A stretch of 64,000 bases of DNA from contig NZ_VTOW01000003.1 in NCBI RefSeq assembly GCF_012184425.1, positions 558,001 to 622,000 on the forward strand. The letters run 5' to 3'. A model generated the notes under the pieces. It saw nothing but the letters and a program-made list of their open reading frames with translations, was not told where the DNA came from and did no database searches. Position numbers and translations under genes: made by a program. This document shows positions 35,149 to 49,038 of this stretch, piece by piece. The stretch's first letter is position 1. Each line of letters begins with the position of its first letter. This stretch comes from Candidatus Manganitrophus noduliformans. GTDB lineage: Bacteria > Nitrospirota > Nitrospiria > SBBL01 > Manganitrophaceae.

Positions 35149-36417
35149 TTATCCCTTCTTGATCTCTGATGCCAAGATAATTGCCTCGGCGATTTCCCGC
35201 ATCGTCTTCCGGGTGTTCATGCTTTGACGTTGAATCAGCCGGAACGATTCCTCCTCCGAGATCTTCCCCTGCTTCATCAAGATCCCCTTCGCTCGTTCCA
35301 CCGCTTTGCGGGTCTCCAGCGCCTCTTGCATGGCGGACGACTGCTGGACGAGGGTCGTATTCTCGATGGCGACCGCCGCCTGATTGGCCACCGTCTGAAG
35401 GATGTTGATCTCCTCCGGGGTAAAGTGGTGCTCTTTGGAAGTGTAGCTGTTGATCACCCCGATCACCCGATCTTTGATCATCATCGGGACCGACAGGAGA
35501 GAGAAAAGCCCTTCTTTTTTCGCCAACTCCGGAAATCGGAAGTGGGGATCGCCCGTGACATCGAGAACCGTGATCGGCCGGCGCTCCTTCACCACCCGGC
35601 CGGAGACGCTCTCCCCGATCTTCACGTTCGCTTTTTGCCGATACTCTTCGCTCAGGCTTTGCGTCGCAACGATCTTCAACTCCCCTTTCGGCTCGTCGAG
35701 GAGCATGATCGAGCAGATCTTCGAATTCATCATTCCCGCGGTCATCGTCACGATCAAATTGAGAATCTCTTCAAGGTATCGATTGGAGGCGATCATCGTG
35801 CTCATCCGGGAGAGGGTATCGATCTGCATCGCCTTTCTTTTCATCTCTTCATAGAGACGCGCGTTTTCGATCGCGCTGCCGACCTGATGACCGATCGTGG
35901 TCAACAGGGCGATCTCCCCGTCCGAATGATAGTGAGGCTTTTTGTGTTGAATGTTGATCACGCCGATGATCTCCCCTTTGCTGATCACCGGCACCGAGAG
36001 GAAGGCGTGGTAGCGATCTTCGGGGAGATTATGGAACAGCGCAAAACGAGGATCCTCCGACGCGTCTTTGGCGATGGCGACCATCTTTTTTTCTTTGGCC
36101 ACCCAGCCGGTGATCCCCTCCCCCAGCTCCAAGCGGATCCGGCCGATCAGCTTCGGATGGGGATTTTTCGATGCGCGAAGGGTCAGCTCCTTTTGGGTTT
36201 CATCGAGGAGATAAAGAAGGCAGGCGTCGGCCTGCGTGATTTCGACGACCATTTCGACGATTTCTTTAAGGACGACCTCGAGTTCCAGGTTCGAGCTGAT
36301 CTGCTCTGTGATCCGATGAAGCACCCCGAGCTCTCGCGTTTTTTGCTCCAAGGCCCCTTTCGCGGACCCCTTCTTCGTCGAAACGGTTTTCTGCGCGCGT
36401 GTCGGCATTGCGAACAT
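35149..36417 (-). CDS. GAF-GAF-ANTAR transcription antiterminator
   Basis: 422 residues. After a short Lys-rich lead come two GAF domains (about residues 45-195, with DACLLYLLDETQKEL and FLSVPVISKGEIIGVINIQ; and about 215-365, with KICSIMLLDEPKGEL and LLSVPMMIKDRVIGVINSY). A C-terminal ANTAR domain follows: RKAVERAKGILMKQGKISEEESFRLIQRQSMNTR (only its ends matter: AVERAKGILM and MREIAEAII). ANTAR domains bind paired RNA hairpins with A1/G4 hexaloops and prevent terminator formation. GAF domains would sense a small ligand. A leader at 47551-47621 in this window has that RNA architecture. Own promoter at 36442-36470. Confidence 0.93.
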   Translation of the reverse strand: MFAMPTRAQKTVSTKKGSAKGALEQKTRELGVLHRITEQISSNLELEVVLKEIVEMVVEITQADACLLYLLDETQKELTLRASKNPHPKLIGRIRLELGEGITGWVAKEKKMVAIAKDASEDPRFALFHNLPEDRYHAFLSVPVISKGEIIGVINIQHKKPHYHSDGEIALLTTIGHQVGSAIENARLYEEMKRKAMQIDTLSRMSTMIASNRYLEEILNLIVTMTAGMMNSKICSIMLLDEPKGELKIVATQSLSEEYRQKANVKIGESVSGRVVKERRPITVLDVTGDPHFRFPELAKKEGLFSLLSVPMMIKDRVIGVINSYTSKEHHFTPEEINILQTVANQAAVAIENTTLVQQSSAMQEALETRKAVERAKGILMKQGKISEEESFRLIQRQSMNTRKTMREIAEAIILASEIKKG

Positions 36418-42800: not shown

Positions 42801-44174
<1,374 letters not shown>

Positions 44175-44213: not shown

Positions 44214-44987
44214 TTACTCCGGCGTCACATAGGCGGCGGTGATGCCGCCGTCTACCATCAACGACGCGCCGGTCATGTACGACGAATCGTCGGAGGCGAG
44301 GAAGAGGGCCGCCTTGGCGATCTCCCTCGCTTCGCCGAACCGGCCCATCGGAATGTGGACCAGCCGCCGCTGCTTCTTCTGCTCCGTGTTCAGGAACTTC
44401 ATCAACAACTCCGTCCGGAGCGGGCCGGGGCAGAGGGCATTGACCCGAATCCCCTCCCGCGCGTGAATCACCGCCAGCTCCCGCGTCATCGACAGAACGC
44501 CCCCTTTGCTCGCCGTGTAGGCCAATTGCGGGGTGGCCGCGCCGAGAACGGCGACGAACGAGGCGGTGTTGATGATCGATCCCCCTCCGGCCCTTTTTAA
44601 CGCGGGAATGCCATATTTGCAGCCGAGGAAGACCCCCTTGAGATTGATCGCCATCGTCTTTTCCCAGACCGCTTCTTCGGTCGTCATGGCGTTGTCGTCG
44701 TTGCTGTCCATGATCCCGGCATTATTGAAAAGAATGTTCAGTTTTCCGAAGGTCTGTTCCGCCGCGGCGACCATCTTGTTACAGTCACCCCCCTTGGAAA
44801 CGTCTGCGTGGACATAGATCGCCTTGCCCCCCTTCGATTCGATCTGTTTCACCGTCTCTTTTCCGGCGTCGTCGTTGACATCGACCGCTACGATCCCGGC
44901 CCCTTCGCTCGAAAAAAGGAGGGCCCCTTCCCTCCCGATTCCACTTCCCGCCCCCGTGATCAGGGCGACCTTGTCTCTTAACCGCAT
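44214..44987 (-). CDS. Short-chain dehydrogenase/reductase
   Basis: 257 residues from the ATG at 44987 (AAGGAGAGG upstream). Cofactor motif TGAGSGIGREG with the acidic AVDVND after strand 2, favouring NAD. NNAG, the catalytic Ser (INTASFVAV) and YTASKGG are present. The C-terminus is SYMTGASLMVDGG. Located between the gamma-glutamyl hydrolase and the aldehyde dehydrogenase, it may oxidise an alcohol such as a hydroxylated amine product to the aldehyde used by the next enzyme (inference). The longer upstream frame is an artefact overlapping the hydrolase. Confidence 0.93.
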   Translation of the reverse strand: MRLRDKVALITGAGSGIGREGALLFSSEGAGIVAVDVNDDAGKETVKQIESKGGKAIYVHADVSKGGDCNKMVAAAEQTFGKLNILFNNAGIMDSNDDNAMTTEEAVWEKTMAINLKGVFLGCKYGIPALKRAGGGSIINTASFVAVLGAATPQLAYTASKGGVLSMTRELAVIHAREGIRVNALCPGPLRTELLMKFLNTEQKKQRRLVHIPMGRFGEAREIAKAALFLASDDSSYMTGASLMVDGGITAAYVTPE

Positions 44988-45004
44988 CGTCCTCTCCTTA
45001 TTTT

Positions 45005-45715
45005 TTATCTTCGTTTCCACTCTGAAGCGGCGCTGACGAGACCATTGAAGAGTTTTTGATGAAGCGGCTCCTCGGCGGCGGCCAGCTCCGGGTGCCACTG
45101 AACGCCGATCAGCCAAGGATGATCGGACATCTCGACCGCCTCCGCTGTTCCGTCGGGAGCCTGTCCGACCACCTTCAAACCGGGGGCCGGCCGGCGAATC
45201 GCCTGATGATGCCAGGAGGGGGCGAGGAATTCCTCTTGAAAGAGGATTTCGGCGAGACGGCATCCCGGCGTGAGCCGAATCGAATGTTGTGTCGGCTCCC
45301 GGGGCGGCAGCCGGTGGAGGATCGTCTCACCGACCGCATCGGGGAGGTGTTCGATCAATGTCCCCCCCAGGGCGACGTTGATGATCTGGCTGCCGCGGCA
45401 AATTCCCAACGTCGGCAACGCCGATTGCGCGCTGTATTGGACCAGGGCGATCTCGCTTTTATCCCGCTCCGGATCGACCATGTAGATCGCCGGATGGGGG
45501 GCGCCGCCGTAGAGGGCCGGATCGAGATCCCCGCCGCCGGTCAGAATCAACCCTTCGAGTTGGACCAAAAGACTCTCCGCGTGAGGCTCTCCGGGAGGAA
45601 GGAGGAGCGGAATCCCCCCGGCGCGGCGGACCGCGTCGACATACTGCGCCGGAAGATAAAAGCGGTTGTTCTCACCGCGGCCGTAGGTGGTGATCCCAAT
45701 GAGCGGAGGGGACAT
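45005..45715 (-). CDS. Gamma-glutamyl-gamma-aminobutyrate hydrolase family (PuuD-like)
   Basis: 236 residues from the ATG at 45715 (the earlier start is a TTG within the neighbour's end). Class-I glutamine-amidotransferase fold: LILTGGGDLDPALYG, the nucleophile elbow LGICRGSQIINVALGG with Cys, and WHPE near the C-terminus with the His-Glu dyad. It hydrolyses gamma-glutamyl amides, releasing glutamate. It follows the glutamine-synthetase-like gene by 4 nt, the PuuA-PuuD pairing of the gamma-glutamylated putrescine route. Confidence 0.93.
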   Translation of the reverse strand: MSPPLIGITTYGRGENNRFYLPAQYVDAVRRAGGIPLLLPPGEPHAESLLVQLEGLILTGGGDLDPALYGGAPHPAIYMVDPERDKSEIALVQYSAQSALPTLGICRGSQIINVALGGTLIEHLPDAVGETILHRLPPREPTQHSIRLTPGCRLAEILFQEEFLAPSWHHQAIRRPAPGLKVVGQAPDGTAEAVEMSDHPWLIGVQWHPELAAAEEPLHQKLFNGLVSAASEWKRR

Positions 45716-45719
45716 TCGG

Positions 45720-47102
45720 TCAGATCCTTTCAAAATACCGCTGGCGTTCCCAATCGGTCACCGCTTTGTCGTACGCTTCCTGCTCCGTTCGATAGAAGTG
45801 AAGGTAGTGCTCGACCACTTCTTCGCCTAAAGCGCTCTTCGCGAATTCGCTCTTCTCGAAGAGATCGGTCGCTTCGCGGAGGGTGCGCGGAACGCGGGGG
45901 AGATTCTGCGCCGCGTAGACATCTCCCTCGAAGATCGGCGGAGGCTCAATCCGGTTCTCGATGCCGTCGAGCCCGGACGCCAGCGCGGCGGCGAAGGCGA
46001 GGTAAGGATTGCAATCGGCGCCGGGGATCCGGCACTCGATCCGTAGGCTGTTCCCTTCCCCCACCACGCGGAAGCCGGCGGTCCGATTATCGTAGCTCCA
46101 GGCCATCCGCGTCGGCGCCCAGGAGCCGGCCTGGTATCGTTTGTATGAATTGATCGTCGGCGCATAGAAGACCATCATCTCCGGGACATGGGCGATCCAG
46201 CCTCCGAGGAACCAACGAAAGGTTTCGGAACAGGCGACCGGACCGAGGCGCTGTTTTCCGGGAAAGGCGGGGTGATTTTTCTGCCAGAGGCTCAAGTGGA
46301 TGTGACAGCTCGATCCGGCCTGGTCGGCGGCGATCTTCGCCATGAAAGTGACGCTTAATCCCATCTGCTCGGCGATCTCCTTCAAGCATTGCTTGAAGGT
46401 CACGTGGCGGTCGGCCATGGTGAGGATGTCGGCGTAGCGGACATTCAGTTCATGTTGCCCCAGCCCCCACTCCCCTTTCGAGGTCTCGACCGGGATGCCG
46501 GACCGTTTGAGGTGGCGGCGGGCCGCGCCGTTGAACCCCTCTTCGCGCGCCCCTTGCAGGGCATGATAATCTTCCAGATACCAGCCGGCCGGCTCAAGCC
46601 CGCTGTAGCCTTTGGCCGCGGCGTCCCGATAGGAATTCTTGTAGATGTAATACTCGAGCTCCGAGGCGGCGATCGCCCGGTACCCCATCTTTGCGGCCCG
46701 GTCGATCTGCTTTCTTAAAATAGAACGAGGGGCCTGGACCACCGGACGATGGTTCTTCTCGTTCTCCACGTCGCAAATCAGGAGCGCCGTCTTCTCCAGC
46801 CAGCTCGCGACCCGCAGCGTGGCGAAGTCGGGAATGAGATGAAAGTCGCCGTAGCCCTTCTCCCAATTGGCGAACCGGTATCCCGGCACCGGCTCCATCT
46901 CCATGTCAACCGTCAGAAGATAATCGCAGGCGTGGGTCCCCTTTTTGGCGGCATCTTCCAGGAAGAAATCGGCGTCGAGCCGCTTTCCCATGAAGCGGCC
47001 GTAGTGATCGGTGAAGACGAGCAGGACCGTATCGATCTCCCCCGCGCTCACCCGCCGGGCGAGCTCATCCTGCGTCAACATGCCTGGGATTTTCGATGAC
47101 AT
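45720..47102 (-). CDS. Glutamine-synthetase-family ligase (gamma-glutamylamine synthetase-like)
   Basis: 460 residues. GS fold with SELEYYIYKNSYRD, GQHELNVRYADILTMADR, MAKIAADQAGSSCHIHLSL (ATP/metal site), NSYKRYQAGSWAPTRMAWSYDNRT and RIECRIPGADCNPYLAFAA. The N-terminal region and the WERQRYFERI ending match the GlnA3/PuuA-like branch rather than true GlnA; the adenylylation-site Tyr loop is not evident. It probably joins glutamate to an amine (polyamine, ethanolamine or similar) at ATP cost. It is followed by hydrolase, SDR and ALDH genes, and preceded by a small membrane-protein gene and a sigma-54/attenuator leader. GGGAGG ribosome-binding site. Confidence 0.88.
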   Translation of the reverse strand: MSSKIPGMLTQDELARRVSAGEIDTVLLVFTDHYGRFMGKRLDADFFLEDAAKKGTHACDYLLTVDMEMEPVPGYRFANWEKGYGDFHLIPDFATLRVASWLEKTALLICDVENEKNHRPVVQAPRSILRKQIDRAAKMGYRAIAASELEYYIYKNSYRDAAAKGYSGLEPAGWYLEDYHALQGAREEGFNGAARRHLKRSGIPVETSKGEWGLGQHELNVRYADILTMADRHVTFKQCLKEIAEQMGLSVTFMAKIAADQAGSSCHIHLSLWQKNHPAFPGKQRLGPVACSETFRWFLGGWIAHVPEMMVFYAPTINSYKRYQAGSWAPTRMAWSYDNRTAGFRVVGEGNSLRIECRIPGADCNPYLAFAAALASGLDGIENRIEPPPIFEGDVYAAQNLPRVPRTLREATDLFEKSEFAKSALGEEVVEHYLHFYRTEQEAYDKAVTDWERQRYFERI

Positions 47103-47299
47103 CCGAAGGCGCCTCCCTTTTTGGACGGAGTTCAGGTGTCGTCATAGAATATATTTATGATACCCGATTAAGGTGAGGGTGAAAAGAGGATTTTCCGTTG
47201 GGAGAAAGGAAAGCGTATTTTTGGAAGAATATTTTCGGCCCCGTTCCTTCGTTTAAGAAGGATCGGTTCGATACGATCATGCCTCTATTTCCGAGAAGA

Positions 47300-47539
47300 T
47301 CAAACCGCTGTGGTCTGCGGCTCGATTTCGTGCGATTCGGATCTCTCACAGAAGGCCGATTCCGACTCTTTCAGGGCCGGCATCGGATAGACCCGGTTCT
47401 GATCGGTTTTGGACTGAATCGGTTTTTCTTCCAAAGGCCCGGGTGACTTCACTGCGGTCAGAATGAACGCCCAAATAAAACTGACAAACGCCATGGCGAT
47501 CATGATTGGAATTCCATACTCCAAAATTTCTTCAAACAT
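47300..47539 (-). CDS. Small single-helix membrane protein, unknown function
   Basis: 79 residues from the ATG at 47539, with CGGAGGAAG as ribosome-binding site. One transmembrane helix (about residues 9-30, YGIPIMIAMAFVSFIWAFIL) and a hydrophilic Pro/Glu/Ser-rich C-terminal tail of about 48 residues. No family recognised. It is the first gene after the attenuator leader and 197 nt upstream of the glutamine-synthetase-like gene. No U-tailed terminator is seen in that gap, so it is probably the leading gene of the amine operon. The open frame continues upstream to 47692, but that part is the structured leader. Confidence 0.7.
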   Translation of the reverse strand: MFEEILEYGIPIMIAMAFVSFIWAFILTAVKSPGPLEEKPIQSKTDQNRVYPMPALKESESAFCERSESHEIEPQTTAV

Positions 47540-47550
47540 GGCTTCCTCCG

Positions 47551-47621
47551 TTAAATAAAAAGCGCTCCCTACCCGTTCAGGTAAGGAGCGCCATTGCTCC
47601 TTGAAGCGCGTCATTGTCTTC
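47551..47621 (-). promoter_or_regulatory. Dual-hairpin attenuator, candidate ANTAR RNA target
   Basis: Minus-strand order: hairpin P1 (47621-47603), GAAG/CTTC plus a closing C-G pair around hexaloop AATGAC; directly adjacent hairpin P2 (47602-47583), perfect AAGGAGC/GCTCCTT around hexaloop AATGGC; then a terminator hairpin (47591-47562), a 12-bp stem with one T-G pair and a 6-nt loop, followed by TTTTTATTT (47561-47553). Both hexaloops have A at position 1 and G at position 4, the ANTAR recognition rule. P2 shares nine bases with the terminator stem, so only one can form. P1 is weaker, with a 1x2 internal loop. An ANTAR protein is encoded at 35149-36417. Confidence 0.75.
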
Positions 47622-47634
47622 TGTCCCCCGGTAA

Positions 47635-47652
47635 GAGCAAAGGGTATGCCAG
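47635..47652 (-). promoter_or_regulatory. Sigma-54 promoter of the attenuator leader and amine operon
   Basis: Minus-strand CTGGCATACCCTTTGCTC: -24 GG (47650-47649) and -12 GC (47638-47637) exactly 10 nt apart, with TGGCA and TTGC intact. The predicted start site, about 12 nt past the GC, is near 47625, four nt before hairpin P1, so the transcript would begin almost directly with the attenuator. No clear activator site was identified upstream. Confidence 0.75.
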
Positions 47653-47967
47653 AATGACCGCCTGGCTCTTTTTCATCCGAGACGCACACCATTCATGGTT
47701 TTAGTATCAAGAATATTTATTTTTTATACGAGCATGGGATGCATAAAAATGTGGAGAAACTTTTTTCATTCGAACTCGCGATCTACATTTTTGTGGGGAA
47801 TGCGACGAAAGGCGGGTGAATGGGATCGGCTTACGACTGGGCGAACAGAGGAGAAAGAGTCTCCTTTTTCAGAAATCGGGTCTCCTCCCGAAATTTACTT
47901 ATTTGGTATACTAACCGATATCGTTAGCATCAACCAAAACAATCGACGTCGGGTGAGTTCAATACCA
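47653..47967. other. Intergenic region between divergent amine operon and HEAT gene
   Basis: About 315 nt. The frame of the HEAT-repeat gene stays open back to 47695, but the extension has no signal peptide, repeat or ribosome-binding site. It should contain the enhancer sites of the sigma-54 promoter and the promoter of the HEAT gene. A TATACT with a poor -35 lies near 47910, and the palindrome ACCGATATCGTT-like sequence near 47917 is unexplained. Confidence 0.4.
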
Positions 47968-49038
47968 ATGTTCTCACGAATAAAAACATTCTTGTTCGTC
48001 GTGATGGTTTTCTTCTATGCTTCGCCCTCGCTCATGGCCCAATCGTCCGACCCTCTGTCGGAGCGGCTTCGGTCGGGCCAATCGTTCGCGCGTTTGCTGG
48101 CTTTGCAGGAGGTCGGTCAATTCGCGCTTGCAGAACAGGTGCACTACCTCCCTCTTCTGGTAGAAGCGCTCAAAGATAAAGACGCGGATGTTCAGCTCAA
48201 TGCAGCGGCGCTCCTCGCGTCGTTGGGAAATGAAACCGAGTCGGCGGTTCCTGTCATGATTGCTTATCTTCGAGAGCCGGACAGCGAAAGACGCGACGTC
48301 GTGATGACCTTGCTTTCCAATCTGCGCCGTACGGCGATCCCGGCCCTCATCGATGCTTTAAGAGACGAAGACCCGAACATTCGTCTCGGCGCCTGCCGGG
48401 CGTTGGGAAAAATGGGAAAAGGAGCGGAAGAAGCGATCCCGTCCCTGATCGATCTGCTCGATGAAGTGAGCCAGGATGTTCCTGATTGCGCCTCTGTCGC
48501 GTTGGGTAAGATCGGCAAGGTCGATGATCTTATCGAAATCATCCAAAGCGGAAGTGATCGGCAGAGAGAGTTGATTTCAAAAAACGCATTTTATCATTTA
48601 CCCGAAGAGATTGACCCGACAGAAGCGCTGATCGAGCTCGTAAAAAATGAAGAGAGCCGCCCGAAAGCGCGCCTGTCCGCGGTGAATGCGCTTGGCTCCC
48701 GCGGCTCCAAATCGAAAAATGCCGTTTCTCCGCTCGTTGCCGCGATGGCCGATCAGGAGATCGGTTTTGCCGCGGCGCGCGCGCTCGGAAAGATCGGTCT
48801 CTCCGCATTGTCGAATACGATTGAAGCGCTCGGTTCAACCGATTTTATCGTTCGCTCGTGGGCGTCTTACGCGATCAAATCGATGGAGCAACCCGCGGTT
48901 GAAGCGGTCCCCTCCCTCATCAAGCTTCTCGATGATCAGGAATTGATCGTCAGCTTGGATGCGAAGTCCGCCCTCGAAAGGATTGGAACATCGAAAGCGC
49001 TTGAAGCCGTAAAGCGATCCAGCATTAGCCTCCGATAA
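47968..49038 (+). CDS. Exported HEAT-repeat protein
   Basis: 356 residues from the ATG at 47968, chosen because it begins a signal peptide (MFSRIKTFLFVVMVFFYASP, cleavage after LMA). The Shine-Dalgarno is poor. The mature part consists of roughly nine HEAT/PBS-lyase-like repeats, e.g. LPLLVEALKDKDADVQLNAA, IPALIDALRDEDPNIRLGAC and VPSLIKLLDDQELIVSLDA. Such alpha-solenoids act as protein-binding scaffolds. Periplasmic by prediction. It stands alone. Confidence 0.85.
   Translation: MFSRIKTFLFVVMVFFYASPSLMAQSSDPLSERLRSGQSFARLLALQEVGQFALAEQVHYLPLLVEALKDKDADVQLNAAALLASLGNETESAVPVMIAYLREPDSERRDVVMTLLSNLRRTAIPALIDALRDEDPNIRLGACRALGKMGKGAEEAIPSLIDLLDEVSQDVPDCASVALGKIGKVDDLIEIIQSGSDRQRELISKNAFYHLPEEIDPTEALIELVKNEESRPKARLSAVNALGSRGSKSKNAVSPLVAAMADQEIGFAAARALGKIGLSALSNTIEALGSTDFIVRSWASYAIKSMEQPAVEAVPSLIKLLDDQELIVSLDAKSALERIGTSKALEAVKRSSISLR

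Follow-up and report, generated by a model that had tools for sequence, protein, structure and literature searches.

Nitrate assimilation in Klebsiella oxytoca combines two levels of control, with NtrA, NtrB, and NtrC serving initiation and NasR serving antitermination (PMC5424462, PMC3369936). In 2012, Ramesh et al. established that ANTAR targets are dual hairpins, that these overlap terminators, and that they occur preferentially with nitrogen genes (PMC3369931); in the regulons predicted there for Desulfotomaculum acetoxidans and Pelobacter carbinolicus, a single genome carries ANTAR sites at several nitrogen operons. For EutV, the ANTAR protein of Enterococcus faecalis, the structure has contacts to the G at loop position 4 (G4) and none to the A at position 1 (A1) (PMC8934654). 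The ANTAR-target phyla listed in the summary in PMC3369936 are Actinobacteria, Bacteroidetes, Firmicutes, and Proteobacteria; Nitrospirota are not among them.

We analyzed a 64-kb stretch of DNA (the window) from a 5.17-Mb genome of the Candidatus Manganitrophus group, Nitrospirota (G000). An initial annotation had proposed that it holds a sigma-54 promoter feeding, with almost no leader, into a dual-hairpin ANTAR attenuator ahead of an amine-catabolism operon. Our comparison with related genomes indicates that this element is very probably an ANTAR-target antitermination leader, driven by sigma-54, and one of at least six forming a nitrogen-acquisition regulon in this genome. The parts of the leader region are as follows.

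47783 to 47796, minus strand: CCACAAAAATGTAG, a candidate binding site for an upstream activator (enhancer-binding protein), lying about 144 nt ahead of −24
47636 to 47652, minus strand: sigma-54 promoter −24/−12 element CTGGCATACCCTTTGCT, an exact match to the consensus YTGGCAYNNNNTTTGCW
47603 to 47621, minus strand: P1 hairpin GAAGAC-[AATGAC]-GCGCTTC, hexaloop with A1 and G4 and a C-G closing pair; P1 covaries in relatives
47583 to 47602, minus strand: P2 antiterminator hairpin AAGGAGC-[AATGGC]-GCTCCTT, 7 bp, hexaloop with A1 and G4
47553 to 47592, minus strand: intrinsic terminator, a 14-pair stem (47592 to 47561) and then the U-rich tail TTTTATTT
47545 to 47549, minus strand: Shine-Dalgarno sequence GGAGG of the first gene, left over from a deletion of about 156 bp between GGAGG repeats

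On the minus strand, the sigma-54 element, P1, P2, terminator, Shine-Dalgarno sequence, and ATG follow one another within 115 nt. The promoter element is the sole exact match to its consensus in the 64 kb; allowing up to one mismatch, chance would give 0.37 matches. Its GG (47650-47649) and GC (47638-47637) are spaced by 10 nt, which fits GG-N10-GC and the YTGGCAY/TTGC consensus, and their position predicts a transcription start near 47625. The element lies about 4 nt ahead of the first hexaloop hairpin. Of the two hairpins in the initial annotation, both are present with A1 and G4, but P1 is weak: its stem consists of the C-G closing pair, a small interior loop, and then 4 bp, with a stability of −2.5 kcal/mol, below that of P1 in relatives. 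The nine bases that P2 and the terminator had been said to share were recovered (9 to 10 nt here), with a terminator stem of 14 pairs rather than the 12 bp claimed. Since the terminator (−24.9 kcal/mol) is far more stable than P2 (−9.8 kcal/mol), termination would be the default fold. The leader as a whole has a fold z-score of −3.6, and none of 200 shuffles was equally stable. In relatives, compensatory as well as one-sided changes preserve the terminator stem over the inner ten pairs compared. Rfam scans gave no matching family. A 130-amino-acid (aa) open reading frame (ORF) running through the leader (47300 to 47692) was rejected as a chance extension of the 79-aa frame described below; relatives have another gene there. 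Divergent from the leader is a gene for a HEAT-repeat-like protein (47695 to 49038, plus strand), whose first start is probably too far upstream, within the leader's promoter region.

The design of the window leader agrees with the published ANTAR target (PMC3369931, PMC3369936) and with NasR SELEX results (PMC7496416), and it has the C-G closing pairs and stems of at least 3 bp expected of this class. It shares with K. oxytoca nasF the A1/G4 hexaloops in P1 and P2, the C-G closing pair, and the P2-terminator overlap (PMC3369936, PMC7496416), as well as the pairing of Ntr (sigma-54) initiation with ANTAR antitermination over nitrogen assimilation genes (PMC5424462). Coupling of sigma-54 to ANTAR control, which the initial annotation took to be new, is therefore already known from nasF and NasR (PMC5424462, PMC3369936). 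In contrast to nasF, P1 of the window leader begins within a few nucleotides of the predicted start. NasR, which detects nitrate by means of its NIT domain, has been described for one operon, whereas the protein discussed below has two GAF domains and seemingly serves several operons. With E. faecalis eut the leader has in common the dual hairpin, the terminator overlap, and several sites per ANTAR protein (PMC3369931, PMC8934654). EutV differs in being a phosphorylated response regulator for ethanolamine, and the accessible text of these two papers describes no sigma-54 promoter for eut. The regulons of Ramesh et al. resemble the present one in having several ANTAR sites over nitrogen operons per genome; a fixed unit of upstream site, sigma-54 promoter, and attenuator without a leader is not described in the accessible part of that paper (PMC3369931).

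The genomes compared, mostly metagenome assemblies, were G009 to G013 of the same genus and G001 to G008 and G014 to G017 of other families of the order. By DNA similarity, the window leader is carried at the identical locus in G009 and G013, and copies with 75 to 78% identity occur in G010, in G012, and at a second site in G013. A structural scan of selected loci found one leader in G011. Covariance model R1, which comprised both hairpins and the terminator tail but not the promoter, found four new leaders (two more in G011 and others in G010 and G014), and each of the four has a similarly spaced sigma-54 element. Among the leaders found by similarity, structure, and R1, this element lies 8 to 19 nt ahead of the model start. 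Two further models, R2 (including the promoter) and R3 (promoter, P1, and P2 only), brought the collection to about 30 similarly built leaders across the order, most of them ahead of nitrogen genes; R1 to R3 all contain the window sequence, and their E values are rough. The sigma-54 element is present in all leaders at a nearly constant distance, which bears out the promoter proposed by the initial annotation, and a T-run follows P2 in 30 of 30 collected leaders, though the terminator is not part of R3. Some R1 matches were rejected for having no sigma-54 element or no P2 or for lying within coding sequence (G000:C2:717625, G003:C81, G009b/G013c, G010c, G004:C40, and G010d). Matches in G382, which encodes a similar ANTAR protein, were coding or incomplete, and G000:C1:938819 and its counterparts have no hexaloops and lie inside an ORF.

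The stems of P1 and P2 covary. In 27 leaders, 80% of the cells are paired and 34 are double changed, compared to 13.1 in shuffles, and none of 500 shuffles reached 34. The closing C-G was retained in 25 of the 27, for P1 and P2 alike. Position 4 of the loop is G in every clear hairpin among the roughly 30 leaders; position 1 is usually A and sometimes G, with one or the other in most of them. This is what would be expected if only G4 is contacted, as in the EutV structure. Examples of P1 are GAAATAC-AATGTT-GTATTTC in G014, GGATAC-AACGTT-GTATTC in G000, and CAAAACAC-AATGTC-GTGTTTTG in G003; a few leaders in sister families are without a clear P1. The dual-hairpin attenuator of the initial annotation, with its A1/G4 hexaloops, overlapping terminator, and covarying relatives, is strongly supported. 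With a sequence profile from which the leaders of small-protein genes were removed, the window site still ranked top in the window (E of 5e-7 with the promoter); the leader part alone scored an E of 0.04 against a profile omitting its own family.

Upstream of most leaders, about 100 to 145 nt from the sigma-54 element, lies an ACA-N4-TGT inverted repeat, with CGACA-N4-TGTCG as its best form. It scores at least 8/10 in 28 of 32 leaders, compared to 10.5% of shuffles, orthologous leaders not being independent in this count. The best matches are clustered at −109 to −118, with a few of the 28 outside this range, and the window copy scores 8/10. The repeat is plausibly a candidate site for the sigma-54 activator.

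Beyond the window leader, five more were found in this genome, at the following positions.

C1:200240: ahead of genes for a porin-like protein, an ammonium transporter, and PII (amtB-glnK)
C1:440915: ahead of a nitrate-assimilation/PII cluster with genes for a molybdopterin-domain/PII fusion, PII, a long pyridine-nucleotide oxidoreductase-type protein, and PII; P1 is not clear
C1:622338: ahead of genes for a CBS protein, the nitrate-type ABC transporter NrtB/NrtC (nitrate/cyanate), and cyanase
C1:1888898: ahead of a formamidase gene
C6:41577: ahead of a cluster with circularly permuted ATP-grasp, alpha-E, transglutaminase-like, and proteasome-like proteins

Leaders in sister families precede genes for a molybdopterin oxidoreductase of the nitrate reductase/formate dehydrogenase kind, for NirD-like and NirB-like proteins, and for a molybdopterin-domain protein with PII and an MFS transporter. 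One leader of G011 is ahead of a cupredoxin gene, whose link to nitrogen is not obvious. The ATP-grasp/alpha-E/transglutaminase-like/proteasome-like cluster (L214:4520-8515) is found behind an ANTAR leader in G000, G009, G013, G011, and G010. The molybdopterin-binding oxidoreductase domain (L269:7772-8917; also in G014, G017, G001, and G007) has a PII-like C-terminal fusion in some genomes, and separate PII genes follow. A text search of the literature available for this study returned no relevant paper on Manganitrophus with ANTAR. These leaders apparently make up a sigma-54/ANTAR nitrogen regulon that is undescribed so far, working by a mechanism already known.

The proposed trans-acting antiterminator is encoded within the window, where the initial annotation had located an ANTAR regulator with two GAF domains.

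35149 to 36417, minus strand: GAF-GAF-ANTAR protein, this genome's sole ANTAR protein

The ANTAR domain assignment is unambiguous from the profile match (PF03861, 76.5 bits), and the two GAF domains are also present. In an alignment with EutV, most RNA contact residues are conserved (PMC8934654): R142, K143, K149, E160, M172, N173, and R175 are retained, and Y164, R168, and R177 are changed to F, Q, and T, respectively. Of the 18 genomes compared within the order, 16 encode exactly one ANTAR protein. All 16 genomes with the protein have leader matches with an E of ≤1e-4, and the two without it gave no match better than an E of 0.005. In distant genomes with similar GAF-GAF-ANTAR proteins, the leader model search gave nothing convincing. 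G000 has one RpoN. Architecture, conservation, covariation, regulon membership, and the single ANTAR protein and RpoN were thus established computationally, and the GAF-GAF-ANTAR protein is strongly supported as the cognate regulator of the leader, on which its action is inferred; the P2-terminator overlap would fit ANTAR antitermination.

Two explanations leave ANTAR control out. That the resemblance is due to chance, with a promoter-like string adjoining a terminator, deserves mention because A1/G4 hexaloop hairpins are common in any sequence and the initial annotation had no control; however, leaders conserved at several unrelated sites in relatives, with near-fixed sigma-54 spacing and nitrogen genes downstream, make this explanation extremely improbable. 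We consider it unlikely, if somewhat less so, that the element is a constitutive intrinsic terminator or some other attenuator (leader peptide, riboswitch, or other protein) in which ANTAR has no role. The terminator is indeed strong on its own, and an Rfam scan without a matching family means that the element is not independently curated. In contrast, the hexaloops with invariant G4, the covarying stems, and the P2-terminator overlap argue against this explanation, as do the single ANTAR gene and its genome-level co-occurrence with leaders, and the leader is too short to hold a leader peptide.

What the window leader controls was considered with the genes that follow it.

47300 to 47539, minus strand: 79-aa one-helix membrane protein, whose gene is the first behind the leader here
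47157 to 47185, minus strand: sigma-70-like ligase promoter TTTTCA-17-TATCAT, in a region conserved in G000, G009, G013, G010, and G011
45720 to 47102, minus strand: glutamine synthetase-family gamma-glutamylamine ligase (PuuA-like)
45005 to 45733, minus strand: peptidase C26 (PuuD-like gamma-glutamyl hydrolase)
44214 to 45263, minus strand: short-chain dehydrogenase, true start probably internal
42801 to 44174, minus strand: aldehyde dehydrogenase

The 79-aa protein matched no Pfam family above the cutoff; it belongs to a multicopy family in the genus, with G000 copies at C1:1240149, C1:745862, and C1:1431776. In G009 and G013, a 48-aa gene stands between the leader and the 79-aa one-helix protein gene. 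Compared to loci L116 and L115, the window lost about 156 bp at 47539 to 47560 between two GGAGG repeats, which removed the 48-aa membrane protein gene and left the Shine-Dalgarno sequence of the 79-aa gene directly 3' of the terminator. A small soluble protein of 103 to 109 aa, also without a Pfam family, is encoded behind related leaders (L106:6688-7017, L107:2802-3131, and L155); its reading as a nitrite reductase half domain was dropped as unsupported by Pfam.

The description of the leader as lying ahead of an amine-catabolism operon is correct as to position, but there is about an even chance that it controls the small membrane protein gene or genes only and that the amine operon, with its own sigma-70-like promoter, merely adjoins. 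This is a narrower form of the favored explanation and still ANTAR control. In its favor, G010 and G011 have the leader with small membrane protein genes at nonsyntenic sites, G012 and the second G013 site (G013b) have it with a 48-aa-type gene and then a 109-aa gene and no ligase, the ligase of G010, G011, G014, G148, and G283 has no leader ahead, and the promoter region of the ligase is conserved in five species. On the other hand, the stretch from the 79-aa gene to the ligase yielded no intrinsic terminator, three species (G000, G009, and G013) share the arrangement of leader, small gene, and ligase, and an amine operon would suit the usual nitrogen gene company of the leaders. Because the small genes move with the leader, and the ligase occurs elsewhere without it and has its own promoter, the small membrane protein genes are, by gene order, the constant partner of the leader and its safe predicted target, and read-through into the gamma-glutamylamine operon is possible. 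The nitrogen genes behind most other leaders make that operon a sensible passenger, without being proof.

In the ANTAR mechanism that we favor, the start site, activator, signal, binding, and read-through are predicted parts. Under nitrogen limitation, an enhancer-binding protein at the ACA-N4-TGT repeat would open the sigma-54 promoter, and P1 and P2 would be transcribed almost immediately after the start. By default, the more stable terminator would form, and the RNA would end within about 70 nt. When a signal switches on the GAF-GAF-ANTAR protein, an ANTAR dimer would grip the hexaloops of P1 and P2, and its hold on P2 would retain the 5' arm of the terminator and prevent termination. RNA polymerase would then enter the small membrane protein gene and perhaps the gamma-glutamylamine operon too. 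More broadly, it is an evenly balanced proposition that a ready-made unit of enhancer site, sigma-54 promoter, and near-leaderless ANTAR attenuator was put ahead of unrelated nitrogen operons across the Troglogloeales, with sigma-54 gating initiation, one GAF-GAF-ANTAR protein gating elongation, and an undescribed family of one-helix membrane proteins as a direct output.

These results give the manganese-oxidizing Nitrospirota, for which there is little genetics, a testable candidate for a genome-wide nitrogen control circuit. They would extend ANTAR RNA control to Nitrospirota, a phylum unnamed in the earlier summaries consulted. The natural variation among the leaders, with G4 fixed, A1 relaxed, and stems covarying, informs what the ANTAR domain reads. 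The regulon would also link nitrogen supply to small membrane proteins of unassigned role and to the ATP-grasp/alpha-E/transglutaminase/proteasome-like cluster.
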